Source of the DNA: Styela clava
Lineage: Eukaryota > Chordata > Ascidiacea > Stolidobranchia > Styelidae
Direction: 5' to 3'
Assembly (NCBI RefSeq): GCF_964204865.1
Contig: NC_135250.1
Span: 6,324,001-6,388,000, forward strand
Length of the DNA stretch: 64,000 bases
A program made the position numbers and the translations under genes. Position 1 is the stretch's first letter. Every line of letters starts with the position of its first letter. Positions 25,055-60,300 of the stretch are shown here, one piece after another. Below the pieces are notes generated by a model that was given only the letters and a program-made list of their open reading frames with translations, ran no database searches and was not told the DNA's origin.

Positions 25055-25073
25055 AAAACTTTTTTTATCTGCC

Positions 25074-25513
25074 TACATCAACGTTATGCAAGTAGATTTC
25101 CTGTTATACAAGACCGGTCTAATGTCCGCCTCTGGATTGGTGACGGCTTCCGGTATTATCTCTTGTTTTTGTCTCACCACTAACTTCACGATATGTTTCC
25201 TTTGATTCTGTAAACACAGAATCGAAGGAAACATATCATGAAATTAGTGGCGAGGCTACCGAACTTCTTTTCGTGCAAGATTTCTTGCATTTGCATAATG
25301 TATACAATGCGTTCCTACAAAGTTGATGGCCCCGTGGGGGGATCTGGTGCCATCAACTTTGTATGAGCACATTTTATATTATACAAATACAAGGAAGTCT
25401 GCACAGAGTTGCTAATTTAACAAGAGCTATTTGGGTGAAGCCTTCACCAATCCAAAGGCATATACTATGCCAGTCTTTTATAACAAGAAATCCACTTGTA
25501 TAACGTTGATGTA
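25074..25513. mobile_element. Foldback element 3' of copy A with nested hairpins
   Basis: Terminal inverted repeats of about 36 bp: TACATCAACGTTATGCAAGT at 25074 and ACTTGTATAACGTTGATGTA ending 25513. Inside are two more hairpins: 25169-25256 (arms CGATATGTTTCCTTTGATTCTG / CAGAATCGAAGGAAACATAT) and 25317-25363 (ACAAAGTTGATGGC / GCCATCAACTTTGT). The same insertion position is occupied by a shorter palindrome in copies B and D and by the satellite array in copy C. Confidence 0.75.
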
Positions 25514-26049
25514 GACGCAATCAACGAGTTACGTTGCTTTTGTAGTTTATATTAGACTATTTATTGATACAATGCTCAATCTAGAAGCGTTCAAAGTGTA
25601 TTTCCTCGTTTTAGTGGATATAATTATTGATATTATCTCTTGTCTATTCGATCAATCTTACCTACTTCTTTTATATTGCCTCTTTTGTCATTACTATTCC
25701 AAAATCTATTTTTGTATCAATTTATTATTATTATGTGCTGCTATTCCTTATTGTACCTTTTTTACTGTCTTTCTAATGAACTATGAGTACCTTTTCATTT
25801 TTGGGATTCTTTCTGAAGACAGGTTTGAGCTGTGGGCTATAGTCTGAAGATGCGCATAATACATGGTTCAGTTGGGTAAAAACCTTCAGAGTCGGGAACA
25901 ATTAGTGAGAACTATAGATGATTGCATCACAAGTGGTTTCTCGGGAGTTTTATTAGCCACTAACATTGGAGTAGATGTTGCGATTAAATTTGAGTTTATG
26001 TGACAGGATGCCAAATCGCTCTTTCAGTGCTAATGTTGCCGATCCGTGC
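25514..26049. other. 3' flank of copy A
   Basis: Homologous to the sequence 3' of copies B (29932-30400), C (47589-48080) and D (57346-57740), starting at AATCAACGAGTTACGTTGCT. In B and D it carries AATAAA (30040-30045, 57453-57458), a candidate poly(A) signal, at a conserved position; in A the signal is changed to ATATAATT. Otherwise no gene. Confidence 0.5.
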
Positions 26050-34800: not shown

Positions 34801-35242
34801 GGAAAATTTGCATTGAATTAAAAAAAAAATTTCGAATTTAATGCACGCAAAGCAACACTCTTTAACGTTGTAAATAAATCCCAATTATGGTAAACTTTCT
34901 ACAGAACACGAAGGCGCATTGAGGCTTGTTAACGGACGGAACAATAAAGAAGGCAGAGTGGAAATCTTCCATGCAGGAAAATGGGGAACAATATGCGACG
35001 TAAAATTCGAGATTGACGATGCGAATGCCGTTTGTTATACTTTGGGGTTTAGCGGAGCAAAGTTCGTTCTAGGGCGAGCACATTTTGGATCAGGATCTGG
35101 ACCTATATGGATTGCCTTCGATCATACCTGCAGCAAAACAAACACGGATTTTTACCTTTGCCATGGACCTTTTGGTGAAAATGAAGATGATAATGAAGAT
35201 TATTGCGGCCATGAGAACGACGTTGCAGTAGCGTGCAATTAA
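31873..35242 (+). CDS. Secreted coiled-coil protein with one SRCR domain
   Basis: Five exons: 31873-32152, 32295-32378, 33373-33435, 33673-33726 (an alternative acceptor three bases earlier keeps the frame), 34905-35242 (TAA). All internal junctions are phase 1; total 819 nt, 272 residues. Residues 1-22 are a signal peptide (MLVFRSFVLALFIFESTSG). Next come about 70 residues with four Cys and no recognised fold, then two exons of heptad-like, Glu/Lys/Leu-rich coiled coil (RRVEKTVKEQNEQLVILKYE), a short Pro/Thr linker and one SRCR domain (LRLVNGRNNKEGRVEIFHAG, KWGTICD, GSGSGPIWIAFDHTC, ending NDVAVACN) with six Cys. SRCR domains act in ligand binding in secreted or membrane immune proteins; phase-1 exons are usual for such extracellular modules. 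Probably an oligomeric, secreted recognition protein (inference). It lies between copies B and C, and its last exon is duplicated at 51354-51691. Confidence 0.85.
32571..32644. repeat. Hairpin MITE, YY1-motif family, copy 4 (shortened)
   Basis: In an intron of the SRCR gene; inner parts of both arms remain (AAGATGGTGCACAACCTGAA and GTTGTGCGCCATCTTGG) but the outer CTCCCGAAGTATG parts are lost. Confidence 0.7.
34099..34195. repeat. Hairpin MITE, YY1-motif family, copy 5
   Basis: In the last intron of the SRCR gene; left arm CCCGAAGTATGTGCACCAAG, right arm CATCTTGATGCACATACTTC. It has no counterpart in the distal block at 50650-50690, so it was inserted after, or lost since, the duplication. 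Confidence 0.8.
34583..34681. repeat. Hairpin MITE, YY1-motif family, copy 6
   Basis: In the last intron of the SRCR gene; left arm CCTTCCGAAGTATATGTATC, right arm GGTGCACATACTTCCGGAG. Duplicated at 51047-51131. Confidence 0.8.
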
Positions 35243-35336
35243 TGAGTTTGTACATCAAATTTAATATGTTAATCCCCGATTGTATCAAATCCAAAAAAAA
35301 AAGGTTTCATTTTGCAATATATATGAAATAAGGGTA

Positions 35337-35575
35337 CTCCCGAAGTATGCGAACCAAGATGGCGGACACCGGAACGTAGTATGTGTACCAGGTTAAGCCA
35401 TAATTTCAGGTACAAATACTACGGGAATCACCTGGCTAGTGCTCGAACTCGTAATATAACTTATATAAGGAATATTGGAATAAAATTATGGTCTAACCCT
35501 AACCTGGTAGCTGGTACATATAATATGTTCCGGTGTCCGCCGTCTTGGTTCACATACTTCGGGAGTACCGAAACG
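35337..35575. repeat. Long variant of the hairpin MITE (239 bp), copy 7
   Basis: Ends CTCCCGAAGTATGCGAACCA and TGGTTCACATACTTCGGGAG with inner ACCAAGATGGCGGACACCGG / CCGGTGTCCGCCGTCTTGG. It is flanked by TA on both sides (GGTA | CTCCC ... GGGAG | TACC), which may be the target duplication. Immediately 3' of the SRCR stop. Duplicated at 51786-52013. Confidence 0.8.
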
Positions 35576-36195
35576 AGTATAACACAGATTCTCCAGCAAC
35601 CATATCGTATGGTATAGATTTTCGTATTGTACAGCAACAGTGTAATTCAATGCATTTTCTTAAAGAAATTAGCAATCTTTAATAATTAGCAATTTAAGAT
35701 GTACAATTTTTTTGTTTTATTCATCATCTTCCATTGCGAGACAACACGACTATGGGTGACATAACTGCGAATTTGTCTTACCTATAGTTGACTAATGGAC
35801 CTTACTTATTGACTTGTGCACACAGAAAATATTGAACCATATTGTGTATATTAAGTAATAAACTTGTCTTTTGTGTACGTACAACTTTTGATTAGATTCT
35901 GAACTTAATATTTAAGAAATAGTCCGTAGTATTAATAATTATCAAGAAATTGAGTTTGAATGAATTTGAAAATGACATGTTTTAAGAATTAAGGGGATTG
36001 AAATTACTATTTTCAGTAAAAATGCAGCATCATACAGAGTCCATTTAATAACATAAAAATTCAATGCGTATTACAATCTTTCTGCTTATCCCATTATTTT
36101 ATAGCATTCAAATACATAATAAAAAAATTCTAAAATATCCACCCATTCGGACACGAACAATCCCTTGTATCTGTGTGTATACTTACAAAATAGGG

Positions 36196-36302
36196 CGCCC
36201 ACGTAGTATTCGTATCAAGATGACGCACAACCTGCCAACCCTGACCTGGTACGCATACTATGTTCAGGTTGTGCGCCATCTTGGTACGAATACTACGGGA
36301 GC
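36196..36302. repeat. Hairpin MITE, YY1-motif family, copy 8
   Basis: Left arm CCCACGTAGTATTCGTATCA, right arm GGTACGAATACTACGGGAG, loop CCTGACCTGGTACGC. Duplicated at 52646-52750. Confidence 0.8.
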
Positions 36303-38088
36303 ATATAGCGGCGCAAGATAAGTAGGCCTACTACAGATATAAATTACAAAGATAGTGGACCCCATACACATTTTTAACACCACATACGTGATGCAAATTT
36401 ATATTCACAAGTATTTTAACGCTATTACAAATAGATCAGAAATAAATCAAAATGCGTTATAATACAATACCCTAACCATTGATTTCAACTGGGTCTTTCA
36501 ACTGTGTTTTGTACTTTGGCACTCAGCCAGTCAAAATAATACACGAAAATTGCCAATTAGCATGTTCCCGATACAGTTGTTGCTGTTTAGCGTACCGGCA
36601 GCCTACTTACTGGTGCGGATGCGTGGTTTTGATTGTTTCGTTGTTTTATTTGCTACAATTTGTTACGTGTAAGCCCCGTATATCAAAGCTGTGCTTCACG
36701 TTAACGTAAATTCCTTTCTAATTTTCGAACTGAAACCAATATTAAGACAGACAGCGCGCGAACTCTCGATGACAATATGGTCAATGAAGACAGTCGGGAT
36801 GATTTTAAATGTAGGACCCTAATGTAAAATCGGTGAATTTAAAATTAAAAAACTACAGCTATGGTCTTTGGAGGCGTCCCGCTTTGAGGTCACAAAAATA
36901 TGGTATCCCTATGTTAAAATATACATACTCCCTAATTATAACATAGATTGCGTAGAGGAAATGTCACTACTTATGTAACTAATTAGTGTAACACATCAAT
37001 GATTGCGCTTGTCATTTGTATCGCATAATAGAACTTCATAATAGATTCTCAACGTGTAAGAGAATTTTACTTCCAACATCGTATTGGATGAACGCATTCA
37101 CACAGTATGATCTGATTAATGTTACAATTTTATTAAGCTTCTGTTACACAGATTTTCTAACAAATACAGATGGTATTCATTCGACTTCAAATAGGAAATT
37201 ACCACAAATTATTTTAAAATTTATTCTATGAATATGCCTAGTTCAACATACCTCGTAACATTCAGCTACCTCGTAACATTCAGAACAACGATAACATACG
37301 TTCAGTTGCAGTTACGCACAAGTTGCCAGACACAAAGGCTAAACGAATCACTTCCTCTGCCTTACGCGCGGTCAGCTGTGAGAGTCAAGTTTTGTTACAT
37401 TTATTCACCTTTAGCTACGCAGCAAGTCATTCACCTGTAGCAAATAATTGTAATACAAATTGTGCTAACCTAATGAATGTTTCCCCGAACATCGACATAA
37501 AATACTTTAATAATGGTTCAATCTAAAAGCTGGTATAATGTGCGAGTCGCACTCACGACTATACGCACAGTTTAGGTAGTTTATGTGTGCATCATAGTCA
37601 GAGATGGACAAAGGCGAATAATATAATATTCCGAATACATTCTAAAATAAATTTTCGAATATGAAAAATTAAATATATTCTGAAATGGGTCTGTTCCACA
37701 AACGATATTCTTCAAGACAATTGTAAACTTGTAGAAATTGAATTGGGATTAATATTTTTTAATTAGTATTCGCTATTTCATTCTGACAATGATCACCTAA
37801 TTTCTTGTCTATCATAAGATAATAAATGCCAAAAAATACATTTTCATACAAAATGATTCTAAATTAATCCTAAAATCAAGAATTTGCTAAATCAAACCAA
37901 TTTCGAATATATGATCCGTTACGAAGATCACTGATTATAGTAATAATAAAGAATATTAATATTAGTACAGCAAATGAAAAGTGAAATTCCTCTTCAAGAA
38001 TAACAAAATTTCCCCCCGTGGAGGAATTCTTTCCCAGGTTGGAAAACGTTGGACTACTTGGCTAAAATTAGCTACCAGTACTTTATAT

Positions 38089-39137: not shown

Positions 39138-42100
39138 ATGGCAGAAGAGCAGGTAAATGCATATAACACTATGTCTTGAATGGTGGCTTCTTTTGTGTTG
39201 CTTTCTCAAAAATGTTTAAAGTCGATTTAGCATAGTTTAGAACTTAAGTCTTAAGTTAAGATCAATCTTCTTATTTTTGTCAAATATAGTATAGTTTCAG
39301 AACTGCTTGATCTGGTAGCAGTAAATTCAGTTAAAAATTCAAGTTTGATCGCATCAAATTCTCCATTTAAAAAATAAATAAACAACAATAAGTGACTGAA
39401 TTTGTTCCAGATCTAGCCGGGTTGCAACTTAAACGTTTTGCAAATTATTCAAATGCAGGGTGACGAACTACTTAGGTCTATGTCAGCCATATTCGAAAGT
39501 AATTTTCTGAAATTTTTCATCAGTACTCCCACTGATATACTATTAAACTTTACAATACGTTCAAGTAAACGTTATTCTGTTATTAATGATTGTAGTCTAT
39601 CAACTTTATTTTTTTAAACAGGCTAACGTGATTGCGACCATAACGGAAAACCGTGCTGGCATTGTAATCACTTTCACAAATTCCGTCCAACGTGACTTGA
39701 GACTGGAACACAATGTTGACGGAAGGTTACTACCGGATCACGGGTTTCATATTGAACCCGACGATAGAATTCGTTTAGAATTCGATACTCTGGAAGGCAA
39801 CATGCAAACCCGATACGTATATCGGAACGTCGCCATTGCAGGTGAGTGATTTCATATGGCTAGGCCTGACATGTCAAACTATGTTCCGCGGGTCAAATCA
39901 GACCAGTTGGGTGATTCAATCTGGCCCGCCGGATGCTGCCATAAATTTATGCTTCTAACCAATTCTGCATGCACTACACTGTGGTTTTCATTTAAATGTG
40001 TATGGTGCAATAGGTTTGTTAGATTATGGTCGTAGTATGTGTAAGTTGTATTTTAGGTTGCCACCGAATTTCTTGTTACGCTACGTTTCGTTTTCTCGCT
40101 CACTCGATTCGACGGCGTGATTTTCACGCCCCATTCTTTCGCCTCGTGTGCGGTCACGCGCAGCCTTGAGTTTCAATTTAGTGCCGACAAAGTTTGTTAA
40201 GATCCCTATAACGCTCTCTTAACGTTCTTTTTTTGTTCGTAGCTTACGTATTCCTGCAAGGTAATTCAATCTATCGATTCCCAATGGTTTCTAATAATCT
40301 GTCGTCGCTGCATCCCTTTTCTGCGCCTTTATTCGTGGAGATTGATAGCTAAATAACATCGCCCGCAAGTCTAAATGGTCAAAATATTTGACCCCTAACC
40401 CAAAAACCTTGCTCACCCCTGTGCTAGGACCTAATAGCTAATGACAATTGAAAATCGCGGTGTCAAAAATGTAGTTTACAAAAGCAATTTTATTAATATA
40501 CAAGATTTCGCGATTTTGATATTCTCAGTAAATTGAATGATAAATTTCATTATTACAGGTCAGCAGCTATTGCGACATTCTCCATTTCCAATCCCAGTTG
40601 CCGTAATAGGAAGAGACGAAGACAACCATTTAATGAGATATGGTATCCTTATTAACGACGTGGAAATCAACGGCGGCCCTATCCAGCTGCGGTCACTTGG
40701 AGGTAGGCTGCCTCTCTAATTCTGTCCAATTTTCATGGACAAAAATCCTTACTTGAACTAAAAAAAGATATATGAATGAACTTGATCATTCCCACAACGT
40801 ATAACTTGCCATGAATATTCCAGATGCTCTGTGACCTAAAACTCGTAATAGTTAAATTCCAAACGAATTTCACATATTCCTCTTCACTGAGATAAATACA
40901 TGTATTATATTGAGGTGAAATTTTTCACTTAATATCAGTGAAAATCATTTAATTATTTTTTTATTTTCTCAGAACTAAACAGATTACTGGGCGGCGATCG
41001 CAATTTCTTTATTGAAAGTAAGTGTGCAAATTCTTTGTCACCAGTTTGTTCAATTATGTAGAATCTATTATTGTAGATTGTAGACGCTCAACCCAGTAGA
41101 CAATAGATAACAGCAGAAAATCGACAATTGCGACAATTCTTCTTTCGTTTATTGTACAGTAGAAAGAATTGTATAAGATTCTGATCTATAAATCGATACC
41201 CCGAATATTAAAATTGTTTATAATACTAATTACTCTCTGGTTACCATCGATCCAATTATTTTCTGGTTGACATCTGCTCTTCTAATTAAAAATTGACTTT
41301 TTATTGATCTTATTTTCAAATTGGAAGAATTTGGTGAATCCCCATATTCAGCCTTTTTCTTTAGCTTTTAGAAATGTTCGCCAAAATTACTAATTTTTCC
41401 CGATATAATACTCCCTACATTTTTAAATGGAAATCATGGGTTTTAAGACATAAGTATGGTGCCTATAGGTTCTAAAAAATTCACTATAAAACATGAAAAA
41501 ATGGCAAAAACCACATTTGAAAAATATACACACATAAATTCAAAAATATGGGACGAGAAGGAAATAGAGTATAGGAGATAAGAGTGTAGATTAGACACGA
41601 ACGGGCGTTTAGTGTTTTTTAAATTTGATTTCGACACATAAAAATGATCTTTCGATCCAATATAATTCGTTACACTGCATTACTGGTCGCTCATGTTTTT
41701 GAATAACCCTTATAGTCGGGTGAAAATAGCGCTTTGGAAGTTCGCTTGTTGCGATATGTTGATAATGCCAGCTTCGGACTTGGAAAAAAATAGCGCTAGC
41801 ACTAATAACCCTCTGGTTACCATTGCTCCAATTATTTTCTGGTTGACATCTGCTCTTCTAATAGACCTTATTGATTAAAAACCCATCCTACGTGCAAAAA
41901 TAAAAGTGATTTAAAAAAAAACAATTTTAACATCAACTCTTATGGGGAATGTGATCACCAGAGCAGAAATTTGCATTTTTTGTAATTTTTTAGATATCTT
42001 TCATTGTATACGTGAGCAGTTTTGAGGATAGAATATTTTTTACATCTTTTTTGATATTTTTATCATGATAAACATGGTCAAGATTTTTGATAATCGTTCA

Positions 42101-44672
42101 TTGAAACTTTAATGAGCGCGGTGTTTCCGATGACGTCATTCTCACTAGACCATGAGATTCTGCCAACGCGCCGTGCTCTGTGGGAACTGCTTGTGATAAC
42201 AGAATACTGGAATACCGGTACCGGGACCACAACTGGTGTTCAACGAAAGACCTATTTTGGTTTTTATTGGATGTTATATATTTCATGAATTCCATGCAAC
42301 TATGTACATTTCTGGTACACCTTTCAAAATCCAATGGCCTAACTCAGTTCGTATGTTGAGTCTTGTTGGCACCATGTACCTATCCCAGAATTGGTGATGT
42401 TCAGGGCTGGATTTAGACCATGAGAGGCCCCTTCATATTTTTGAGCTCAGAATTTCTCTCTAAACAACAACACATGTCATTGCTTAAAATTTAAAAATAT
42501 GAGTGCATTAAATTTTTCATTCTCCCCATTCATGGGTGTGAATTTTTAATTAAAGGAATAAAAATTTACTTGAGGCAGTTTTGCTTTCAATTTCTTTGAT
42601 CAAACAACCGCTACAGCCATACTTTAACATAGAAATTTCCAGCAGAATGCGCATAATAATAATTTCCCTCATTATGATGCTGTGGTTGAAACCAGTTGTG
42701 TACAGAATTTTCTACTCTGAAAAGCTTGATATATATATATATACGTTTCGTAGGGTTTAAACTCGTCAAGTTTTCAAAAGATTACAAATTTCGAAACCGA
42801 ATTTCGAGGCTCTAGGTTTCAGCCTGCCTAGCCTATTGGTAAATCCAGCTCTGGTGATGGTCCCTACAGCAAATTTCTGGCCCTAATCACTCAGCAGACT
42901 GAAATAAATGGTTTTCAGCATTTATTAGCAAAGATAGATATTTTAATTAAACATATAGTTCAACTTGAAGCCTGTATAATGATATTATAAACATATGTCC
43001 CATTATCACTGCATTGTGAGAAGGCTTTCCATACTATCAAGTCTATAAGGTTTTAGCGTCTTCCAATGTCTCAGATGGAAACTTCAGTCTTCGTTTCGCA
43101 TATTCTTTTCATTAATACCATTAGCATTTGAAGCTTGACTGATTCCAATGTATCTTTTCCATTGTTGTTTAATGTAATAGCCTAAACGTGACTTCAAATT
43201 TTTTTCTCACTTCAATCATCACATGTTTGAATACCCGAGCTGACTTCTACTGATTTGTTATTAATTTATAATTTTTTTTTATAAATTGTCGTACTTGCTA
43301 AGTGTCCACTAAGTGAAAATCTATAAAAAAAAAAAAAAAGTGGTTTAATAATGAACTACATGTTTAACCAAATCCAAAAATATTCCTTAACTTAGTCAAC
43401 CCGTCCTCCAAGAAGTTTTTGTTAAATTGTTCAAACATCTTAATTAACTGTTAATCTTGATAGCGAACATGGGGGGCAGGGGCTTTTTAACCTAGTAAGG
43501 AGACCGGTATTGTACCATTATAGGTTGGAGATATTCATCTTTTTTGTATACCGGTACTGTACAACTTATCCTGCCTATTGGCAGGCTGGGCAACATTTTT
43601 GTTCGTAGGCCTATTCCAGTATTTACTAAATAATTTAGTTTTCACCTCTTGCAGCCTTGGTACGGTACCGGTAGTTTAAATAACACGTCAGCATGCCTTC
43701 AGTAAATGATTGCTAGCGGTACAGGTATAAAGGCGTAAAACCAGTAAACAAACGTGATAGAAATGGTATGGGTTATAGATTGTCAATGTTAAACGCTTCC
43801 AGTACCGGTACCGTACTCAAAGCGACATTAGCGCCGCATTTGCAGCGCATATCCCACAGAGCACGGCAAGTTGGCAGAATCTCATGGTCTAGTGAGAATG
43901 ACGTCATCAGAAACACCGCACTCATTAAAATTTTAATGAACGATTATTAAAAATCTTGACCATGTTTATCATGATAAAAATATCAAAAATATGGTAAAAA
44001 ATATTCTATCCCCAAAACTACACACGTATACGATGAAACATATCTAGAAAATCTCAAAAAATGCAAACTTCTGCTCTGGTGATCACATTTCCCATAAGAG
44101 CAAATGTTAAAAAAAAAAATTTTACATCACTTTTATTTTTGCGCGTAGGATGAGTTTTAAATGACTAAGGTCTATTGAAAATGTGCTTTTATTAATCTTA
44201 TTTTCAAATTGAAAGAATTTGGTCAATACTAATATTCAGCCTTTTTCTTAGCTTTCAGAAATGTTCGCCAAAATTACTAATCGCTCCCTATATTGTCACA
44301 TTCTCCTAACTTTACATCATGTGAAAATATTTCTCTTCTTCAGATTTACATAGCACGAACGCATTTATTGGATCAACGTGCCAAAGGTAATTATGTTTTT
44401 TTACTGGTATGTTTCCTATATTAAAATGTCCATTTCTGTGTAACTAAATTAAAAATTAAAATTTGCCGTAGTAATTGTACATTCTACATTGTGGATATTA
44501 TTACTCACATGGAAATTGTGGAATGTATTTATTAATTTTTTTTAGTAGTCACTTCAACTAATTGCTTGCTTGCTAACAACCTAATGAGGTTTTCTCTCCC
44601 TCTTCCTGTGTAATTTTTCTATATTTCAAATCCTATATTTCTCTATTTTATAGTTTGCCTCCGTCGAAGTAA
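39138..44672 (+). CDS. Unrecognised beta-rich protein, family copy C (truncated C-terminus)
   Basis: Exons: 39138-39152, 39622-39841, 40559-40702, 40973-41017, 44344-44386, 44654 onward. Exon 3 has one additional codon compared with the other copies (DEDNH instead of DSYH). In exon 6 the TCG-AAT-CAA of the others is TCG-AAG-TAA, giving a stop at 44670-44672 and loss of the Gly/Ser-rich tail (about 22 residues); the tail sequence is still present beyond the stop. Intron 4 has grown from about 80 bp to 3.3 kb by nested insertions, and intron 2 holds a hAT element. The globular part is intact, so a shortened protein is possible. Confidence 0.65.
39866..40421. mobile_element. Non-autonomous hAT element in intron 2 of copy C
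   Basis: Left end CTGACATGTCAAACTATGTT followed by CCGCGGGTCAAATCAGACC; right end reverse complement CAGGGGTGAGCAAGGTTTTT. Flanks GGCTAGGC (39858-39865) and TGCTAGGA (40422-40429) are decayed copies of an 8-bp duplication (6 of 8 match). The same element is at the same place in copy D and absent from A and B. Confidence 0.82.
41213..41411 (+). repeat. Element E1, first direct copy
   Basis: A ~190-bp segment (ACTAATTACTCTCTGGTTAC ... GTTCGCCAAAATTACTAAT) repeated in the same orientation as two separated pieces, 41796-41862 and 44174-44287. The second copy was split by the foldback element 41863-44173. Confidence 0.75.
41863..44173. mobile_element. Foldback transposon with ~320-bp terminal inverted repeats
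   Basis: Inverted repeats 41863-42184 and 43851-44173 start AGACCTTATTGATTAAAAAC and (reverse complement) AGACCTTAGTCATTTAAAAC and stay alignable over about 320 bp to CCGTGCTCTGTGGGA. Inside lie unique sequence, CCGGTACCG-rich segments and a small hAT element (42402-42853). Its position inside element E1 is shown by the uninterrupted E1 copy at 41213-41411. No transposase frame found. Confidence 0.85.
42402..42853. mobile_element. Small hAT element inside the foldback transposon (452 bp)
   Basis: Left end CAGGGCTGGATTTAGACCAT, right end reverse complement CAGAGCTGGATTTACCAATA. Flanks GTGATGTT (42394-42401) and GTGATGGT (42854-42861) match in 7 of 8 positions. Contains GAGGCCCC and no open frame. 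Confidence 0.8.
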
Positions 44673-44755: not shown

Positions 44756-47588
44756 TTGACATCAACATGATGCAGGTGGGCTGTCATACACTACGTGATT
44801 GTCCCCTGTATAACAGTATGCAATTATTCGACATCAACATGATGCAGGTGGGCTGTCATACACCATGTATTTGCCACCTGCATAACGTGATGCAATTATT
44901 CGACATCAACATGATGCAGGTGGGCTGTCATACACCATGTATTCGCCACCTGTACAACGTGATGCATTTATTCGACATCAACTTGATTCAGGTGGGCTGT
45001 CATACACTATGTATTTATTTGCCACCTGTACAACGTGATGCATTTATTCGACATCAACTTGATTCAGGTGGGCTGTCATACACTATGTATTTATTTGCCA
45101 CCTGTACAACGTGATGCATTTATTCGACATCAACTTGATGCAGGTGGGCTGGCATAACTATGTATTTATTTGCCACCTGTACAACGTGATGCATTTATTC
45201 GACATCAACTTGATGCAGGTGGGCTGGCATAACTGTGTATTTATTTGCCACCTGTACAACGTGATGCATTTATTCGACATCAACTTGATTCAGGTGGGCT
45301 GGCATAACTGTGTATTTATTTGCCACCTGTACAACGTGATGCATTTATTCGACATCAACATGATGCAGGTGGGCTGTCATACACCATGTATTCGCCACCT
45401 GTACAACGTGATGCATTTATTCGACATCAACTTGATTCAGGTGGGCTGTCATACACTATGTATTTATTTGCCACCTGTACAACGTGATGCATTTATTCGA
45501 CATCAACTTGATTCAGGTGGGCTGTCATACACTATGTATTTATTTGCCACCTGTACAACGTGATGCATTTATTCGACATCAACTTGATTCAGGTGGGCTG
45601 TCATACACTATGTATTTATTTGCCACCTGTACAACGTGATGCATTTATTCGACATCAACTTGGTGCAGGTGGGCTGTCATACACTATGTATTTATTTGTC
45701 ACCTGTACAACGTGATGCATTTATTCGACATCAACTTGATGCAGGTGGGCTGGCATAACTGTGTATTTATTTGCCACCTGTACAACGTGATGCATTTATT
45801 CGACATCAACTTGATGCAGGTGGGCTGGCATAACTGTGTATTTATTTGCCACCTGTACAACGTGATGCATTTATTCGACATCAACTTGATTCAGGTGGGC
45901 TGGCATAACTGTGTATTTATTTGCCACCTGTACAACGTGATGCATTTATTCGACATCAACTTGGTGCAGGTGGGCTGTCATACACTATGTATTTGCCACC
46001 TGTACAACGTGATGCATTTATTCGACATCAACTTGATTCAGGTGGGCTGGCATAACTGTGTATTTATTTGCCACCTGTACAACGTGATGCATTTATTCGA
46101 CATCAACTTGGTGCAGGTGGGCTGTCATACACTATGTATTTGCCACCTGTACAACGTGATGCATTTATTCGACATCAACTTGATTCAGGTGGGCTGGCAT
46201 AACTGTGTATTTATTTGCCACCTGTACAACGTGATGCATTTATTCGACATCAACTTGATTCAGGTGGGCTGGCATAACTGTGTATTTATTTGCCACCTGT
46301 ACAACGTGATGCATTTATTCGACATCAACTTGATTCAGGTGGGCTGTCATACACTATGTATTTATTTGCCACCTGTACAACGTGATGCATTTATTCGACA
46401 TCAACTTGATGCAGGTGGGCTGGCATAACTGTGTATTTATTTGCCACCTGTACAACGTGATGCATTTATTCGACATCAACTTGGTGCAGGTGGGCTGTCA
46501 TACACTATGTATTTATTTGCCACCTGTACAACGTGATGCATTTATTCGACATCAACTTGATTCAGGTGGGCTGTCATACACTATGTATTTATTTGCCACC
46601 TGTACAACGTGATGCATTTATTCGACATCAACTTGATTCAGGTGGGCTGTCATACACTATGTATTTATTTGCCACCTGTACAACGTGATGCATTTATTCG
46701 ACATCAACTTGATTCAGGTGGGCTGTCATACACTATGTATTTATTTGCCACCTGTACAACGTGATGCATTTATTCGACATCAACTTGATTCAGGTGGGCT
46801 GTCATACACTATGTATTTATTTGCCACCTGTACAACGTGATGCATTTATTCGACATCAACTTGATGCAGGTGGGCTGGCATAACTATGTATTTATTTGCC
46901 ACCTGTACAACGTGATGCATTTATTCGACATCAACTTGATGCAGGTGGGCTGTCATACATTATGTATTTATTTGCCACCTGTACAACGTGATGCATTTAT
47001 TCGACATCAACTTGATTCAGGTGGGCTGGCATAACTATGTATTTATTTGCCACCTGTACAACGTGATGCATTTATTCGACATCAACTTGATTCAGGTGGG
47101 CTGTCATACACTATGTATTTATTTGCCACCTGTACAACGTGATGCATTTATTCGACATCAACTTGATTCAGGTGGGCTGTCATACACTATGTATTTATTT
47201 GCCACCTGTACAACGTGATGCATTTATTCGACATCAACTTGATTCAGGTGGGCTGTCATACACTATGTATTTATTTGCCACCTGTACAACGTGATGCATT
47301 TATTCGACATCAACTTGATGCAGGTGGGCTGGCATAACTGTGTATTTATTTGCCACCTGTACAACGTGATGCATTTATTCGACATCAACTTGATGCAGGT
47401 GGGCTGTCATACATTATGTATTTATTTGCCACCTGTACAACGTGATGCATTTATTCGACATCAACTTGATTCAGGTGGGCTGGCATAACTATGTATTTAT
47501 TTGCCACCTGTACAACGTGATGCATTTATTCGACATCAACTTGATGCAGGTGGGCTGTCATGCACTATGTGAGTGCCACCTACGTAAT
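44756..47588 (+). repeat. Satellite array of about 38 units of 72, 75 or 76 bp
   Basis: Unit: ATTCGACATCAAC-TGAT..CAGGTGGGCTG.CATA..CT.TGTATTTATTTGCCACCTGTACAACGTGATGCATTT. Counting AGGTGGGC gives 38 units. Three length classes: 76 bp (TGTCATACACTATGTATTTATTT), 75 bp (TGGCATAACTGTG...) and 72 bp (one ATTT missing). The first units are the most diverged. Each unit is an imperfect hairpin: CATCAAC.TGATGCAGGTGGGC pairs with GCCACCTGTACAACGTGATG. The array starts 84 bp after the premature stop of copy C and ends GCCACCTACGTAATGTTGAA, the expected right end of the miniature element found 3' of the other copies. Long frames through it (25-residue repeats) result from units of 72 or 75 bp and are not taken as genes. 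Confidence 0.95.
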
Positions 47589-48289
47589 GTTGAAGTAGTC
47601 GAATCACCAACGAGTTACGTTGCTTTTGTAGTCTATATTAGACAATTTATTGATAGAATGCTCAATCTAAGAGCATTCAGAATGTAATTCCACGTTTTAG
47701 TGGAAATAAGTATTGATGTTATATATTCCACCAATGCTATCTACGCCTTTTACATTGCCCGTTTTTGTAATTTCTTTAAAAAATATATTTTTCTACCAAT
47801 TTATTTTTATCAATAAAAGTTGTTGCCATTCATTAATCATTATTGTACCTTTTTACTTTGCCCTTTTTTGTCATTTCAACAAAATATATTTTTGTATCAA
47901 TTTATTTTTATCATTAAAATGTGCTGTTATTTATTAAGGTACCTTTTTTATTTTCAATGAACTATAAATATATTTACATTTTTGGGATTCTTTCTGGAGT
48001 CGTGACAGGTTTGAGTGTGGGTTATAGAAGTTGAGCAATACATGGTTCAGTTGGGTAAAAATCTTTAGACGAGAGAGTCGGGAACAATTAACTATAGCTA
48101 GCGCACTCTATGGGTCGACTTGTTGGACACGTAGTGGACATAACGATCGTTTCAATATTATGTTGTTGTTCTTGTTCTTTGACACGTTTTTAAAAAGTCG
48201 CTTTTTTCTTCGAATACTGGACCAATTGCTTTGAACTTTTCAGTGGTTAAAGATAAAAATTTTCTCCAGAAGGCTATTACTTTTTTTTC

Positions 48290-50325: not shown

Positions 50326-51046
50326 GGTTCAGAGCAAAATTTCGTGATTTTCTTTATTGAAGCCATATTTTTTCAACGCAATTCTGACATATGGACTCTT
50401 TTCTGTAGTGAGTTATTGACGAAAACGCATTTTTTATTGTATTTGAACGCTCATCAATCTGCCTGAAACTTGTATTCTATGTTCCCAATAAATTATGTGC
50501 TCAGGGGATTCAATACGAGGACCCAATGAGAAAGTTACATACAGTTATATATCTCCCAAGTATTCGAGATTCGAAAAAAAACACTTGGTCTCAAACCAAT
50601 ATTTTTACATACTTACCTTAAAATAGTTCCAAGCAAATTTTAAACATTACTATACAAACCAACCCGGTTGATTTTTTCAGTTAAATAATTGTTTAAGCAT
50701 CAAGCTATTTGTTCTCTGGCACTTTTATATGTTATATGAATTGCACAGTATTTTAGATTTATAAATGATTCAATATCAAACCATGGGAATAGCGTAATGT
50801 CCGCAAACCACCTGCTTTGCCACATATTATATAACTGACAATTGTAAAAAAGATTTAAATCTTTCAGTTGTGTCAATTTGGCCTCGATGTGTTTTTTTAA
50901 TTAAAGTACGGCAAGCATCGGTGATTCCATCTATCTGTGGCTTAGGTTATATGTCGTAAATCAAGATAGTTCAACCTAACGCAACGTTGCGTTATAACGC
51001 AATCTAATTCAAGATGGTGTAGTAAGTAGTTGATCGGCCGCCGGTC

Positions 51047-51131
51047 CTCCCGAAGTATGTGCGCCAAGATGGAGCACAACCTGAACATAGTATGTGTGAT
51101 TGGGGGGCCATCTTGTTTCACATACTTCCGG
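51047..51131. repeat. Hairpin MITE, YY1-motif family, copy 6' (shortened loop)
   Basis: Duplicate of 34583-34681 with about 13 bp lost from the right arm. Confidence 0.75.
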
Positions 51132-51353
51132 AACACCCCCCGCCAACTCTCTTTTTGGTTTGCTGACAGTCAAATGGTTGAGTGTTTCATTACTTCAAAG
51201 TAAGTTAAATTCAATTTGGAATGAAACAGAAAGAAAGCAATGGTTAACGGAAAATTTGCATTGAATTAAAAAAAAAAATTTCGAATTCAATGCATGCAAA
51301 GCAAAACTCTTTAACGTTATAAATAAATCTTAATTATGGTAAACTTTCTACAG

Positions 51354-51691
51354 AACACGAAGGCGCATTGAGGCTTGTTAACGGACGGAACAATAAAAAA
51401 GGCAGAGTGGAAATCATCCATGCGGGAAAATGGGGAACAATATGCGACGTAGAATTCGAGATTGACGATGTGAATGCCGTTTGTTATACTTTGGGGTTTA
51501 GCGGAGCAAAGTTCGTTCTAGGGCGAGCACATTTTGTATCAGGATCTGGGCCTATATAGATTGCCTTCGATCATACCTGCAGCAAAACAAACACGGATTT
51601 AAATCTTTGCCATGGACCTTTTGGTAAAAATGAAGATTATAATGCAGATTATTGCAGCCATGAGAACGACGTTGCAGTAGCGTGCAATTAA
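51354..51691 (+). pseudogene. Duplicated final SRCR exon with in-frame stop
   Basis: 338 nt, the same length as exon 5 of the SRCR gene, with intact acceptor AG (51352-51353) and terminal TAA (51689-51691). The Trp codon TGG of the GPIW motif is TAG (51557-51559). The Cys codon count is unchanged, but several residues in the acidic loop differ. No copies of exons 1-4 lie upstream, so it has neither start nor signal peptide. A non-functional duplicate, unless used as a terminal exon by another transcript. Confidence 0.9.
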
Positions 51692-51785
51692 TGAGTTTGT
51701 ACATCGATTTTATTGTCTTAATTCCCGATTGCATCAAATCCAAAATAAAAAGGTTTCATTTTGCAATATATATAAAATAAGGGTA

Positions 51786-52013
51786 CTCCCGAAGTATGCG
51801 AACCAAGATGACGGACACCGGAACGTAGTATGTGTACCAGGTTAAGCCATAGTTTCAGATACAAATACTACGGGAGTCACCTGGCTAGTGCTCGAAACGT
51901 AATATAACTTATACAAGGAATATGGGCATAAAATTATGGTCTAACCCTAACCTGGTAGCTGGTACACACACTATGTTCCGGTGTCCGCCGTCTTGGTTCA
52001 CATACTTCGGGAG
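51786..52013. repeat. Long hairpin MITE, copy 7'
   Basis: Duplicate of 35337-35575 with the same TA flanks and CTCCCGAAGTATGCGAACCA / TGGTTCACATACTTCGGGAG ends. Confidence 0.8.
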
Positions 52014-52645
52014 TACCGAAACGAGTATAACACAGATTCTCCAGCAACCATATCGTATGGTATAGATTTTCGTATTGTACAGCAACAGTGTAATTCAATG
52101 CATTTTCTTAAAGAAATTAGCAATCTTTGATAATTAGAAATTTGAGTTATACAATTTTTTTGTTTTATTCATCATCTTCCATTGCGAGACAACACGACTA
52201 TGGATGACATAACTGCGAATTTGTCTTACCTATAGTTGACTAATGGACCTTACTTATTGACTTGTGCACACAGAAAATATTGAATCATATTGTGTATATT
52301 AAGTAATAAACTTGTCTTTTGTGTACGTACAACTTTTGATCAGATTCTGAACTTAATATTTAAGAAATAGTCCGTAGTATTAATAATTTTCAAGAAATTG
52401 AGTTTGAAGGAATTTGAAACTGACATGTTTCAAGAATTAAGGGGATTGAAATTACTATTTTCAGTAAAAATGCAGAACCATACAGAGCCCATTTAATAAC
52501 ATAAAAATTCAATGCGTATTACAATCTTTCTGCTTATCCCATTATTTTATAGCATTCAAATACATAATAAAAAAATTTCTAAAATATCCACCCATTCGGA
52601 CACGAACAATCCCTTGTATCTGTGTGTATACTTACAAAATAGGGC

Positions 52646-52750
52646 GCTCACGTAGTATTCGTATAAAGGTGACGCACAACCTGCCAACCCTGACCTGGTA
52701 CGCATACTATGTTCAGGTTGGGCGCCATCTTGGTACGAATACTACGGGAG
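52646..52750. repeat. Hairpin MITE, YY1-motif family, copy 8'
   Basis: Duplicate of 36196-36302; left arm changed to AAAGGTGACGC, so the motif is broken on that side but kept in the right arm (GCGCCATCTTGG). Confidence 0.8.
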
Positions 52751-53902
52751 CATATAGCGGCGCAAAATAAGTAGGCCTACTACAGATATAAATTACAAAG
52801 ATAGTGGACCCCATACACATTTTTAACACCACATACGTGATGCAATTTTATATTCACAAGTATTTTAACGCTATTACAAATAGATCAGAAATAAATCAAA
52901 ATGCGCTATAATACAATACCCTAACCATTGATTTTAAAGGTCTTTTAAGGAAGGTCTTTCAACTGTGTTTTGTACTTTGGCACTCAGCCAGTCAAAATAA
53001 TACACGAAAATTGCCAATTAGCATGTTCCCGATACAGTTGTTGCTGTTTAGCGTACCGGCAGCCTACTTACTGGTGCGGATGCGTGGTTTTGATTGTTTC
53101 GTTGTTTTATTTGCTACAATTTGTTACGTGTAAGCCCCGTAAATCAAAGCTGTGCTTCACGTTAACGTAAATTCCTTTCTAATTTTCGAACTGAAACCAA
53201 TATTTAGACAGACAGCGCGCGAACTCCCGATGACAATATGGTCAATGAAGACAGCCGGGATGATTTTAAATGTAAGCCCCTAATTTAAAATCGGTGAATT
53301 TAAAATTAAAAAATTACAGCTATGGTCTTTGGAGGCGTCCCGCTTTGAGGTCACAAAAATATGGTATCCCTATGTTAAAATATACATATTCCCTAATTAT
53401 AACATAGATTGCGTAGAGGAAATGTCACTGCTTATCTAACTAATTAGTGTAACACATCAATGATTGCGCTTGTCATTTGTATCGCATAATAGAACTTCAT
53501 GATAGATTCTCAAGGTGTTAAGGAATTTTACTTCCAACATCGTATTGGATGAACGCATTCACACCGTATGATCTGATTAATGTTACAATTTTATTAAGCT
53601 TCTGTTACACAGATTTTCTAACAAATACAGATGGTATTCATTCGACTTCAAATAGGAAATTACCACAAATTATTTTAAAATTTATTCTATGAATATGCCT
53701 AGTTTAACATTTTCGAATATATGATCCGTTACGAAGATCACTGATTATAGTAGTAATAATAAAGAAATAATTAATATTGGTATAGCAAATAAAAAGCAAA
53801 ATTCCTCCCGAGAATAACAAAATTTTTCCCCGTGGTAGAATTCTCTCCCAGGTTGGAAAACGTTGGACTACTTGGCTAAAATTAGCTACCAGTACTTTAT
53901 AT

Positions 53903-54270
53903 CAGGGGTGTGCAACCTGCGGCCCACGAGGAAAAACTGTGCGGCCCGCGGAGGAGTGCCAATTTTGAATGGTGTGCTCGCGAAACGAGTTTTTAGTTTT
54001 CTTAATCTGGTACCTGCGAGTAATTCCAATCCGTTTGCGTCGCAAAGCCTATACCCGTACCTGATTGGCACTGTTGTATATATAAGCAAAACGCTAGCCA
54101 AATCCTGCTGCAAAATACAAGATTTTATAAAAACGTGTTTCTCAATGAATTCGTTAAAAGTGGGTGTGACAAATTAAATTCAATTCTTCAGAAATTTCAA
54201 ACCTGTACGCGATTAATTCTTTCTCTGGATCTTCAACCACAAACTTACGGACACAATTAGGATGCAACAA
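53903..54270 (+). mobile_element. hAT element fragment upstream of copy D
   Basis: Duplicate of the fragment at 38089-38455, starting CAGGGGTGTGCAACCTGCGG. Confidence 0.5.
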
Positions 54271-54804
54271 GGCAAAGAGCACAAGTGTCGTAAACAAATA
54301 TTTTCTAAAACAGAAATATTTGTAGGCTGAAAATGACCATGGGTGCAAATGCCCGTGGATTTAAATGTTCGTAGGTACAAATTGCAGGGGTGCAGATGCC
54401 CGTAAATGTATATGTAGATGCAAATTACATGGGTGCAAATATAAAAGGGCAAAAATGTCCGGGGTGCGATCTACATATACTAAAATCCGTGGGTTCATGT
54501 CCCCCTGTGTACAAATGGGCTGTTATCACGCGCTGTCCTCGTGTTCAGTGAATGATAATTCGTACCTCGCTAACCTAGAAAATTCCCTCAACTTATACCG
54601 AAATATCCACTCGAATATTATAGGGTTGACGTGTTCCATTATGATCATGTGATGGTTTGTGGTTAGGAGGGTAAAACGCTGACTTTATAACCAGTTAGAT
54701 AAAACAATTGGAGAGCAATTTTACCCCAAAGTTTACGGTTTTCTATCAACAGAAAATGTATAGCATTTGTCATAATTTTTATGCCTTTCAAAGTTAAAGC
54801 GATT

Positions 54805-54956
54805 CAGTAAAAAATTTCTGTTTACCCTTTATAACGATAGTCCGCAATTTTTGAGAGCTCTATATTCGTACAACGTTGATAGCGAAGCGCTCATTTTGGA
54901 CAACGCCCTTGCAAGGAGTTTGTCCTCGTCAATTTTTTGATTGAAAAAGGTTCTTG
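54805..54956 (+). promoter_or_regulatory. Proximal promoter/5' UTR of copy D
   Basis: Conserved block as in the other copies, but the TATA box reads TATAT (54861-54865) instead of TATAA; ATG at 54957. Confidence 0.45.
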
Positions 54957-57232
54957 ATGGCAGAAGAGCAGGTAAATGCATATAACACTGCTATAAAATT
55001 ATGTATGTCCTGAATGGTGGCTTCTTTTATGTTGCTTTCTCAAAAATGTCGATTTAGCATAGTTTAGAACTTAAGACCAATCTTCTTATTTTTGTCAAAT
55101 ATAGTATAGTTTCAGAACTGCTTGATCTGGTAGCAGTAAATTCAATTAAAAATTCAAGTTTGATCAAAACAAATTCTTCATGTAAAACATAAATAAATAA
55201 CACTCAGTGACTGAATTTGTTCCAGATCTAGCCCGGCTGCAACAAACGTTTTGCTAATCATTCAAATGCAGGGTGACGAACTACATTAGGTCTATGTCAG
55301 CCATATTCGAAAGTAATTCTTTAAAATTTTTCCTCAGTACTCCCACTGATATACTATCAAACTTTATAATACGTTCAAGTAAACGTTATTCTGTTATTAA
55401 TGATTGTAGCCTATCGACTTTATTTTTTAAACAGGCTAACGTGTTTGCGACCATTACGGAAAATCGTGCTGGTATTGTTATCACATTCACAAACTCCGTC
55501 CAACGTGACTTGAGACGGGAATGCAATGTTGACGGAAGGTTACTACCGGATCACGGGTTTCATATTGAACCTGACGATACAATTCGTTTGGAATTCAGGA
55601 CACTGGAAGGCAATATGCAAACTCAATACGTATATCGGAATGTCGCCATTGCAGGTGAGTCTTCGAATGGCTTCACAGAGCTAGGCCTGACATGGGTAAA
55701 CCCCGGTCCGCGGGTCAAATCAGGCCAGCCGGATGCAATCTGGTCCGCCGGATGCTGCCATAAATTTATACTTTTAACCAATTCTGCATGCACTACCTAG
55801 TTGTCATTATTGAAATTTGTATGATGCAATAGGCTTGTTATATTATGGTCGTAGTCTGTGTAAGTTGTATTTTGGGTTTTCACAAAATTTCATGTTATGG
55901 GGACGTCACATTTTCTCGCTCACTCGATTCGACGGCGTGCTTTTCACACCTCTTTCTTTCGCCTCGTTTGGTTGCCGTGTGCGGTCACGCGCACCATTGA
56001 GTTTCAATTTAGTGCTGACAAATTTTATTAAGTTCCCCATAACGCTCTCTTAACGTTTTTTTTGTTCGTAGGTTACGCATTCATGCCATCTAATTCAGTT
56101 TATCGATTCCCAATGGTTTCTAATAATCTGTCGCTAAATCCCTTTTCTGCGCCCTTATTCGTGAAGATTGATAGCTAAATTACATCGCCCGCAAGTCTAG
56201 ATGGTCAAAATATTTGACCCCTAACCCCAAAACCTTGCCCACCCCTGAGCTAGGTCATAATGACAATTGAAAATGACGTGGTATATAAAATTCATCCCAA
56301 ACAAGCAATTTTAATAAAATACAATTTTTTTACAATTCTCAGTAAATTGAATAACAAATTTCATTATTACAGGTCAGCAGATATTGCGACATTCTCCATT
56401 TTTGATCCCAGTTCCCGTAAGGGGAAGATACGATTACCATTTAATGAGATTTAGTATTCTTATTAACGGCGTGGAAATCAACGACTGCCCTTTCCAGCTG
56501 CGGCCACTTGGAGGTAGGCTGCTGATCTAATTATTTCCAATTTTCATGTATTAAAAAATCCTGATTCAAACTAAAAAAAGTAAATATATATATCAGATAC
56601 TCTGTGACCTCAAACTTATAACAATTAAATTCTGAACGAATTTAACATATTCCCCGTGAGTGCGGCCTCGTTACTAAGATAAATGCATGTATTATTTCAA
56701 GGCAGATTAATACTTCTTACTTGTTATGTGTATAATCATTCATTTATCCTTTATTTTCACAGAACAAAACAGAATACAGGGCGGCGATCGCAATTTCTTT
56801 ACTGGAAGTAAGTGTTTATTTTGTAAAATATCACTTCTCCTAAATTTACAATAATATGTAAAAATATTTCATCTTTTCAGATTTGCATAGCACGAATGCA
56901 TTAATTGGATCAACGTGCCAAAGGTAATTACGTTTTTTTTCCTGGTATGTTTGTTATGATGAAATGTCCATATTTGTGTAACAAGATTTAAAAAATGTAT
57001 TCACCGTAGTAATTGTACATTCTACATTGTAGATATTATCACTCACAGAGTAATGGTGAAATGTATTTATGAAAAATTTTCTAGTCATTTCAGCTAATTG
57101 CTCCCTCTTTCTGTGGAATTTGCCAAATCCTATATTTCTCTATTTTATAGTTTGCTTTCGTCGAATCAAATGATTCCAGACGACGATGTGGATGGTTGGT
57201 CGGGAGATTCTGCTTCGAAACAACTTCCTTAG
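54957..57232 (+). CDS. Unrecognised beta-rich protein, family copy D (intact, 6 exons, 181 aa)
   Basis: Exons: 54957-54971, 55435-55654, 56373-56513, 56763-56807, 56881-56923, 57151-57232 (TAG). Total 546 nt, no lesion. Exon 2 is almost identical to the other copies; exon 3 has more replacements (NDC for NGG, PVPVRGRYDYH for PVAVIGRDSYH) and exon 4 ends FFTG. The last exon is two codons shorter than in A and ends SKQLP. Intron 2 carries the same hAT element as copy C. A candidate AATAAA lies at 57453-57458. Function unknown; no signal peptide or membrane segment. Confidence 0.75.
55687..56247. mobile_element. Non-autonomous hAT element in intron 2 of copy D (561 bp)
   Basis: Left end CTGACATGGGTAAACCCCGG, right end reverse complement CAGGGGTGGGCAAGGTTTTG. 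Flanks AGCTAGGC (55679-55686) and AGCTAGGT (56248-56255), 7 of 8 identical. Same site as in copy C. Confidence 0.87.
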
Positions 57233-57261
57233 GAAGCTTTTTATATTTTGACAATTATTCG

Positions 57262-57345
57262 GACATCAACATTAAACATATGGATTTATATGGATTAAAA
57301 GAAATCTTTTAATCCATATAAATCCATATGTTTAATGTTGATGTC
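57262..57345. repeat. Short palindromic element 3' of copy D
   Basis: A nearly perfect hairpin: GACATCAACATTAAACATAT on the left and ATATGTTTAATGTTGATGTC on the right, with TGGATTTATATGGATTAAAAG and its inverse between. Confidence 0.85.
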
Positions 57346-60300
57346 GTTGAATCAACAACGAGTTACGTTGCTTTAGTAGTCTATATTAGACTGATTATTA
57401 ATACAATGCTCAATCTAGAAGCATTCAAAGTGTAATTCCACGTTTTAGTGGAAATAAATATTGTTGTTATATATCTTACCAACATTGTAACTATTTTGTT
57501 ATTTCTATAACGAAATATATTTTTCTATCAATTTATTTTCATCATTAAAATGTGCTGCTATTTATTGTTGTACCTTTTTTGCTGTATTTCTAATGAACTA
57601 TAAATCCTTTTTCATTTTTGGGATTCCTTCTGGAGTCGTGCCAGATTTGAGTGTGGGTTATAGAAGATGAGTAGCAATACGTGGTTCAGTTGGGTAAAAA
57701 TCTTCAGTCGAGAGAGTCGGGAACAATTAACAAGGTAGCGCACTTTATAGGTCGACTTCTATTTAAAAACATGTGGCAGTTTCAGTTTGATTGTTAACTA
57801 AATAACTGTGGTAACATCGCGCGCAGTCTCGATTCTTAAAAGTATTCAAAGAAGTAATTTTTGGGAAATAATTAATGCATCCTGGTTTTGGGGGTTCCAG
57901 GTTATTTCACATCCTTTTTTTAATTTCAAAATTCTTCATGTTTTTATTTTAAATTTTCCGGGAAAGCTCGTTATGCCGTCGCCTTATTGAATTAATTGAT
58001 CAGTCTCGTAATTTTATTTTTTAAGGGGAAGAATTGAAGGGAAAAATAACAAAGGACAAGAATTGAATTGATTCACACAAATGTGACCATGCGCACAGAA
58101 TACATCGCTATAATGTAGTGTTGACAAATATTATCACAGCGCTCGCGTGCGGAAAGGCTAACATTATCAAAATATGAATCATCTCGTATGCAGCATTGAA
58201 ATATTTCAAAAACATCGTATCTGGATTTAGAATGCCGCTGCAGGCATTTTCGACCTCTTGTAAAAAGAGAACAAAACTTGATACGGTCGCAAATTTTCGG
58301 AAGAATCCACTGTATGCGTATACACAAATAGAAATGGGCTGCGAACAACCTCAGGCAATCATTAATGTAAATGATACCTGTTGACATAAATTCAGCCGAT
58401 TACAATAGAATAATCGAACCACTACAGGGATTTAAACGTTTAGTATTTTCTTGGAGCTTACTTGAATGGAATCGAAAGAATGAAAGCTAAGTTCAGCAGC
58501 AAATTAAAGTTTCTTTGCAGATAAATTCTCCCAGAAGCAAAGCCAACGGACCTCTATTCATACATATTTGATATCAGACCAATTTGACTATATAATTACA
58601 ATTTTGAATTGAGATGTTATCTGTTTTCGACCGGCAGCGGTCGAGTGGAGAATCTTTTTTATATCAGATATTTTTTTTATGCAGTATATATATATAATAG
58701 ATTCTCTGATTGTCCGCCGTATTCATTCAAAATTTAACAAAGTTTTTGTGTCCTTTTTTAAGAGTGTGTTGATGGGAGTATAGAATCTTACATCATCATA
58801 TATATTGTGAGTTACTGCGTTCCGCGGCTGGGTTATTTGATCTGCTGAGATAATCTTTTAACGTAAACTGGAGTAATTTTTGCAACAGTGCATTGGATTT
58901 ATTGAAAAACAAGCTTAAGTGGGCAATTCAGTTTCGTCACAAGTACAATTATCTGAATTTTGGTGTATATCCGGTTTCATAGAAAGATAATACGGAGAAA
59001 ATTGGCAGCAGATGTACGATGCTAATAATAGTAATAAGAATAATAGAGAGAATAACAGTAATTCTCGCCGCAAACATCAAAATCCAAGATTTATTATTGC
59101 ATTTTCAGTTGAAGCTTAGCTTGTTATCTGCTTCATGAGTCCGTCCAACAGCACAGATTCACATAGAACAAGAGAGCAATGCTCAAATATATGGACACGA
59201 AAGAATTGATGTAGTAATTAACGTGAAACGCGATTTTTCATGACAACAAGGAAAGAATTCTAAGAACAACATATTAAAAATAAAAAAAACGATCCATCCA
59301 TAGGCACGTGTCCAATTTATACTTCATGTCGAGTATTGTAAATGTGTGGAGAAATTAGTTATCAGAAATAATCTTAGAATAATAACAACGAAGCCGTCAC
59401 TGCAGTTAATCCGTCCTGCGCTAGTAACAATACCAATTATGAGATAGATAAGAATTTTGGATTTACTTACTTGACTTCAAATCAGCTATAACCTATAACG
59501 ATGTATTGGCAATTATGAAATTCTGATGAATGTAACTGTTCATGATGCAACAAAGCTTATCGAGCAAAAATAGTTTGAAATTGCGTACGGAAGCGTTGCG
59601 ATGATTATTAGTTTGAGTTTTTTTCTAGATTTGTTTGCGAAAGAGCGAAATAGAAGTATTTTAAAACATAAGGATATTTAGTAATTTTGAGAATCGCAGG
59701 GAGAAAGAGCTTCCATTTTTATATTTTATAGACACCGACAACGTTCAATCGCTAATGATAAGCCTGTGTTTAAAATGTTTTTGTCGAGGATGTATATATA
59801 GACTATTATCTGCACCGCCGAGCTCAAGTGCAAGTACTTTGAATCGCCTTATAAAGATATCATGATTATTAAAAGAATTTAAAACTATTTTTTTAACAAC
59901 CTACTAAGCGAAAGATAACATTGCCTCATTGTCATTGAAAAATCTGTCTAAGTTTTTATAAGAGTATTAAATCGTGAAATTATCAATTGACAGAATTGTT
60001 AGGCTATTTTTATTTATTTATTTATTGCAGAAGAAAAGTACGTGACAAGTACTGAAATAGTTTAATATAGCCCGTGAAGTCATTTCATTCGTTTATTCTA
60101 GTAATTTCTAGTTGCACCTGGCCTAATTGTTTCTTGGGCGGCATTAAGAATCTCAACTGACTCTCCTTAAGTCGAACCTGCTGTTTATATAACATCATAA
60201 TAGCCCCCTTTAAAAACAACTATTCAAATAGCCACTGGTAACATTCTTCCATATATTAGTCGTAAATTTGATGATCAGAAATTATGAGTTTTGACCTTGG

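Follow-up and report, generated by a model that had tools for sequence, protein, structure and literature searches.

Tandem arrays that have grown out of inverted-repeat DNA are known from several animals. For Drosophila virilis, the sections of PMC4079207 that deal with the Tetris foldback element and its TIR-220 satellite describe arrays of up to 66 copies, for which unequal exchange was proposed. Tetris itself is a transposon, flanked by target-site duplications of 8-10 bp, whose TIRs contain the ~220-bp repeats. The parts of PMC9659126 on MITE-derived satellites name Xstir and miDNA4 of Xenopus and HindIII and BIV160 of bivalves, in which an inverted repeat was tandemly amplified and homogenised, and trace them to mobile element families. 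Template switching makes and mends hairpins. Monttinen and Loytynoja 2022 (PMC8794818) treat microRNA and rRNA stems in which several bases of one arm have changed together so that they match the other arm's reverse complement, and pairing is restored.

The locus described here, in the ascidian Styela clava, resembles the first two systems in that inverted-repeat DNA became a tandem array with a homogenised interior, and the third in that one arm carries a multi-base change equal to the reverse complement of the other. Unlike Tetris, it is a single locus for which no dispersed copies were found, and the repeated unit is a whole palindrome. The satellites covered in PMC9659126 stem from mobile element families, whereas no evidence of mobility was obtained here. 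The hairpins treated in PMC8794818 are RNA stems, whereas this palindrome lies in the 3' flank of a gene and was then tandemly expanded in one gene copy. Our literature search returned these close precedents, but no description of this locus or of the same combination. The locus is a neat example of the start of a tandem repeat, not a new kind of thing.

The window, that is, the whole stretch of DNA analysed, covers 64,000 nucleotides (NC_135250.1, positions 6,324,001 to 6,388,000 of the forward strand), and all coordinates below count from its first letter. When one exon was used as a protein query against the whole genome, four gene copies were recovered in the window (A, B, C, and D), together with a fifth copy (E) on the other strand 3.7 kb beyond it and one weak match elsewhere (E-value 1.5). 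Three features frame the region of interest in copy C:

39619..39846, + strand: exon "2" of copy C, with homologues at 23591-23818 (A), 28579-28806 (B), and 55432-55659 (D) and a further one beyond the window
44654..44672, + strand: start of the last coding exon of copy C, with an early in-frame TAA at 44670-44672
47601..47725, + strand: conserved 3' flank after the element, with genome matches at the five paralogs only

Exon borders, read from the alignment of the five copies, showed GT/AG sites, and exons 2 and 3 were in frame in A-D. Length differences were seen in B, which lacks one base in a later exon, and in E, where exon 2 is seven bases longer and exon 3 lacks one base. With C and E left out, dN/dS was 0.23 for A-B, 0.23 for A-D, and 0.43 for B-D, and judged by these values the coding part of A, B, and D looks constrained. 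Two exon segments of copy A gave no Pfam match at E up to 1. The early TAA in the last exon of C lies 85 nt upstream of the array; the distance from the stop codon to the start of the palindrome is 18 nt in A and 30 nt in B and D. Trees of the paralogs were poorly resolved, with bootstrap values of 46-79. Copy D (54200-57700) looks mosaic, its 5' part being nearest C and its 3' part nearest B, which suggests conversion or recombination between paralogs. A segmental duplication (34204-37249 and 50670-53710) showed 94.5% identity, and the next stretch, which runs into copies C and D, is 89% alike. Elsewhere in the window, an ORF of 397 aa (62202-63395) matched positions 59-260 of the rhodopsin-type GPCR profile 7tm_1.

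In each of the five paralogs, the interval from the last exon to the 3' flank contains a palindrome or, in C, the array. The first-pass annotation of this DNA had placed palindromes at the same 3' position in A, B, and D, and they were found there:

25073..25514, + strand: palindrome of copy A, 442 bp, with outer arms and two nested hairpins in the former loop
29851..29931, + strand: quasi-palindrome of copy B, with 30 of 40 aligned arm positions complementary and 2 more of G-U type
57263..57344, + strand: perfect palindrome of copy D, with a 40-bp stem and a 4-nt loop

Folded as DNA, the A palindrome gave z −17.1 (0 of 100 shuffles as good) and the D palindrome z −15.2 (0 of 200); B folded more weakly (z −3.3, 2 of 200), and E was folded without a shuffle comparison. 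The two hairpins nested in A lie at 25173-25255 and 25273-25407, and no second copy of them was found in the genome. The ends ACATCAAC/GTTGATGT, proposed as common to all copies, held exactly over 8 bp in A and D, but one end differed by one mismatch in B (left, ACATCTAC) and in C (right, GTTGAAGT). In E, the palindrome occupies the same slot between the last exon and the conserved 3' flank and has inner arms homologous to those of A, and its ends are TAAATAGAC/GTCTATTTA, not ACATCAAC/GTTGATGT. Because E has a homologous palindrome in the same slot without those ends, the aligned copies suggest that the palindrome is probably ancestral to the five-member family and that its ends were probably not fixed.

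In copy C the place of the single palindrome is taken by an array:

44758..47600, + strand: array of copy C, 38 head-to-tail units of 69-76 bp, with a genome match here only
44758..44829, + strand: unit 1, the diverged 5' edge, with 13 differences from the unit consensus
47532..47600, + strand: unit 38, the 3' edge, with 17 differences from the consensus and the right terminus kept

Tandem Repeats Finder reported 44758-47570 with a period of 76, 37.5 copies, and 95% matches. Splitting at GACATCAAC, the start of each unit, gave 38 units, in agreement with the number first estimated. Seventeen units were 76 bp long, fourteen 75 bp, six 72 bp, and the terminal one 69 bp, and together they represent 13 sequence types. 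The short form (69-72 bp) was seen in units 1-3 and 38, and also in 9, 17, and 19. The array lies between the last coding exon of C and the 3' flank common to A, B, and D, and unit 38 continues into that flank with the right terminus that had been expected. Directly 5' of unit 1 stands TTTTATATTTT, without the AATTATTCGGAC found in D.

The 36 units between the two edges differed from the consensus at 0-7 positions. When lags 1-13 were compared with the edge units excluded, units at lag 6 were most alike (mean 2.23 differences), followed by lags 8, 2, 7, and 1 (2.54-2.77), and the other lags gave 3.2-3.4. The longest exact repeats inside the array measured 306 bp; offsets of 454 and 449 bp were among those seen. 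Diverged edges around a homogenised interior are what unequal exchange or slippage usually leaves behind, and beyond this pattern we make no claim on the direction of growth. Each unit had been described as still a hairpin. Folding of three stretches of about one unit each supported this for the central stretch, a weak hairpin (z −2.9, 1 of 200 shuffles). The description does not hold for the edge units: neither the stretch at the 5' edge (z −0.2, 84 of 200) nor that at the 3' edge (z −1.2, 26 of 200) was clearly better than shuffles. ORFs of 150 and 238 aa are present in the array, but a coding function was rejected, as 76-bp units would shift the frame.

Minisatellites consist of head-to-tail units of ~10-100 bp with a homogenised interior, and the array has both properties. 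The term satellite, used in the first-pass annotation, implies large or multi-locus arrays and is too strong for a single 2.8-kb array: further arrays were looked for, and the genome search with the array returned one candidate place, at copy C. The array is therefore a local single-locus minisatellite, probably from an inherited palindrome.

Unit halves were compared with the arms of A and D in 48 comparisons, each against 1000 dinucleotide shuffles. The left half of unit 1 matched the A arms at p = 0.001 and 0.002 and the right half of unit 2 at p = 0.001 and 0.003 (all p values uncorrected for the 48 comparisons). For the left half of unit 1, ACATCAACATGATGCAGGTGG, the counterpart at p = 0.002 was the reverse complement of the A right arm, ACATCAACGTTATACAAGTGG; the reverse complement of the right half of unit 2, CATC-ACGTTATGCAGGTGG, resembled the A right arm at p = 0.003. 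The right half of unit 1 gave p = 0.007 and 0.11, the latter with the A right arm, and the right half of the consensus p = 0.27 with the A left arm and 0.002 with the other. The right halves of unit 1, unit 2, and the consensus had no significant match to the D arms against dinucleotide shuffles. Most tested halves thus aligned to the arms of the A palindrome, as had been predicted for the sister element, with a homology of only ~20 bp per side. Shared position, shared arm sequence, and the expected right terminus support the reading of the array as an expanded homologue of the sister-locus palindromes. The first-pass proposal that a single palindrome passed into an array stands on the same position and arm sequence; of the unexpanded sister loci, the three it counted (A, B, and D) were confirmed, and E brings their number to four.

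The unit junctions read CAATTATTC (after units 1 and 2) or CATTTATTC. These sequences equal the 5' flank of the palindrome in D (GACAATTATTCGG, GACAATTATTCGGACATC) and in B (GACTATTATTCGG, GACTATTATTCGGACATC), and therefore the duplicated piece was the palindrome plus a short 5' flank. The AATTATTC of D is kept in units 1 and 2. Before unit 1, copy C lacks this flank, as if it had been removed between two GAC triplets.

The perfect stem of D differs from the other palindromes in one block:

57311..57325, + strand: right-arm block of D, putative template-switch footprint, exact reverse complement of the D left arm; A, B, and E have TTTATAACA there

The block, AATCCATATAAATCC, occupies the place of ATAACAGAAAATCC in B, and the left arms of B and D agree at 14 of the 15 positions concerned. 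The alignment strongly suggests that one multi-base copying event from the left to the right arm would explain the perfect stem of D. Template-switch quasi-palindromes are recognised by a cluster of changes that makes one arm match the other in reverse complement, with the ancestral state taken from relatives; D is one clear case, its polarity being read from paralogs only. Some apparent template switches could instead be products of gene conversion between paralogs, and the polarity is uncertain because D looks mosaic and the paralog trees are weak.

The genome (376.6 Mb) was searched with the array, the palindromes of A, D, and E, and an arm motif; very common words were skipped, and the counts are lower bounds. 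The D palindrome found D and B only, the A palindrome A only, and the E element with its flank the five paralogs only, with alignment to A through its right arm (query 63-218, 80%). The positive control, a MITE-like repeat that also occurs in the window, gave 853 first-look candidates, of which 40 were scored. This control repeat is palindromic, with arms near CTCCCGAAGTATGTGCACCAAGATGGCGCACAACCTGAAC, and occurs at 13 places in the window, including 4365-4466, 16784-16916, and 30933-31046. The window also contains ORFs with DUF4371 and hAT dimerisation matches at 13508-15261, a hAT-type transposase. With up to 3 mismatches allowed, the arm motif ACATCAACRTTAWRCAWRTRGATTT had 20 sites in the genome, and its reversed control had 9. 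Five of the 20 were exact and belonged to A, B, and D; the remaining 15 all carried 3 mismatches, as no site had 1 or 2. Among these 15, L057 and L058 were rejected as relatives: they represent a single repeat, can be aligned with each other over 221 bp, and neither has an inverted repeat. One end of A matched L057 over 31 bp (E 3e-4), but these loci had been preselected for the arm motif.

The first-pass annotation took the element for a MITE. On such a reading, the ancestral palindrome, for example of Tc1/mariner type with a TA duplication, was inserted once before the family duplicated, its other copies decayed, and the array is MITE-derived; we consider this unlikely. A TA duplication at both ends is the rule for Tc1/mariner-type elements, and TA flanks CATCAAC/GTTGATG at both ends in A, at the right end in B and in the last C unit, and at the left end in E, but at neither end in D. 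Across A-E, in a comparison that included no empty site, no consistent target-site duplication was found. The compactness of the palindrome and the existence of MITE-to-satellite cases, as given in parts of the review PMC9659126, also favour an insertion, as does the end pattern ACATCAACN(45-75)GTTGATGT, with 8 places in the genome versus 1 for the reversed control, an excess without explanation. One of these places is D; in the six tested among the other seven (the seventh lies on C6), the interiors were unpaired, with inner arms matching at 5-12 of 24-37 positions. With a spacer of 10-40, the pattern had 8 places versus 5 in the control, none of them at these loci. The confinement of the exact arm motif to A, B, and D also argues against a dispersed family, as do the seven of the 15 three-mismatch sites that were examined, none of which had an inverted repeat within 700 bp (BLAST E 0.001). 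A MITE has many dispersed copies, and here none were found, compared with the 853 candidates of the control; its ends are conserved, and here they are shared by A and D, altered by one mismatch each in B (one end) and C (right end), and absent in E. Three observations, the failure to find dispersed copies, the lack of a target-site duplication common to the copies, and the different ends in E, leave the MITE reading of the palindromes unsupported by the sequence.

Selection for an RNA hairpin in the 3' UTR, acting in message stability or as a small-RNA precursor and multiplied by the array, would account for the presence of the palindrome in all five paralogs, a short way behind the stop codon in copies A, B, and D, and would suit the apparent constraint on their coding part. 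Moreover, at 7 of 26 consensus pairs both bases were altered in one sequence or more. However, the covariation term was unfavourable (+1.72), Rfam assigned 0 families in the window at the gathering score, the edge units of the array folded no more clearly than shuffles, and the copies are unlike in arm sequence, in their ends, and in size, which ranges from about 80 to 442 bp. Stem mismatches in A, B, and E were not biased to G-U, with 11 of G-U type and 13 of A-C type (6/12, 2/0, and 3/1 by copy), counts that depend on the chosen arm boundaries and leave out the C units; therefore there is no sign of pairing kept at the level of + strand RNA. A selected hairpin thus appears improbable, and a DNA-level, non-functional explanation of the palindromes is preferred. 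Misassembly is a common risk for long near-identical tandem repeats, and the length or existence of the array might in principle be such an artefact. The 13 unit types in non-periodic order, the diverged edges, and flanks continuous with the paralogs on both sides make this highly implausible.

The best explanation, to which we assign a probability of about two in three, is an inherited 3' palindrome in a five-member local gene family, re-perfected by template switching and tandemly expanded in copy C, and not an active mobile element. According to this explanation, the palindrome would have been present in the 3' flank (probably the 3' UTR) of the common ancestor of the five copies, as their shared position and homologous arms suggest. 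Its arms would drift by mutation and at times be recopied by short-range template switching during replication, which is strongly suggested for D and which we infer for E. In copy C, the palindrome and ~10 bp of its 5' flank were duplicated head to tail, as the flank remnant in the unit junctions shows, and unequal exchange or slippage would then have brought the array to 38 units, a mechanism suggested by the homogenised interior and diverged edges. Palindrome and array most likely have no function of their own. Against this explanation stands the fact that the polarity of the changes is read from only five paralogs.

As the array stands beside four unexpanded homologues (A, B, D, and E), the passage from a single palindrome to an array can be seen. 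The locus also carries a warning: compact inverted repeats shared by paralogous sites should not be called MITEs on that ground alone; here, where searches gave no dispersed copies, an inherited palindrome and template switching suffice. We tentatively suggest a wider picture, rather less probable than the explanation of this locus itself, in which a short palindrome may be an inherited, non-mobile, self-correcting feature that survives gene duplications, each copy rewriting itself in place by template switching, and in which the same instability can seed an array without a transposon. If confirmed in sister species, the locus could time the palindrome, the quasi-palindrome, its repair, and the tandem growth.
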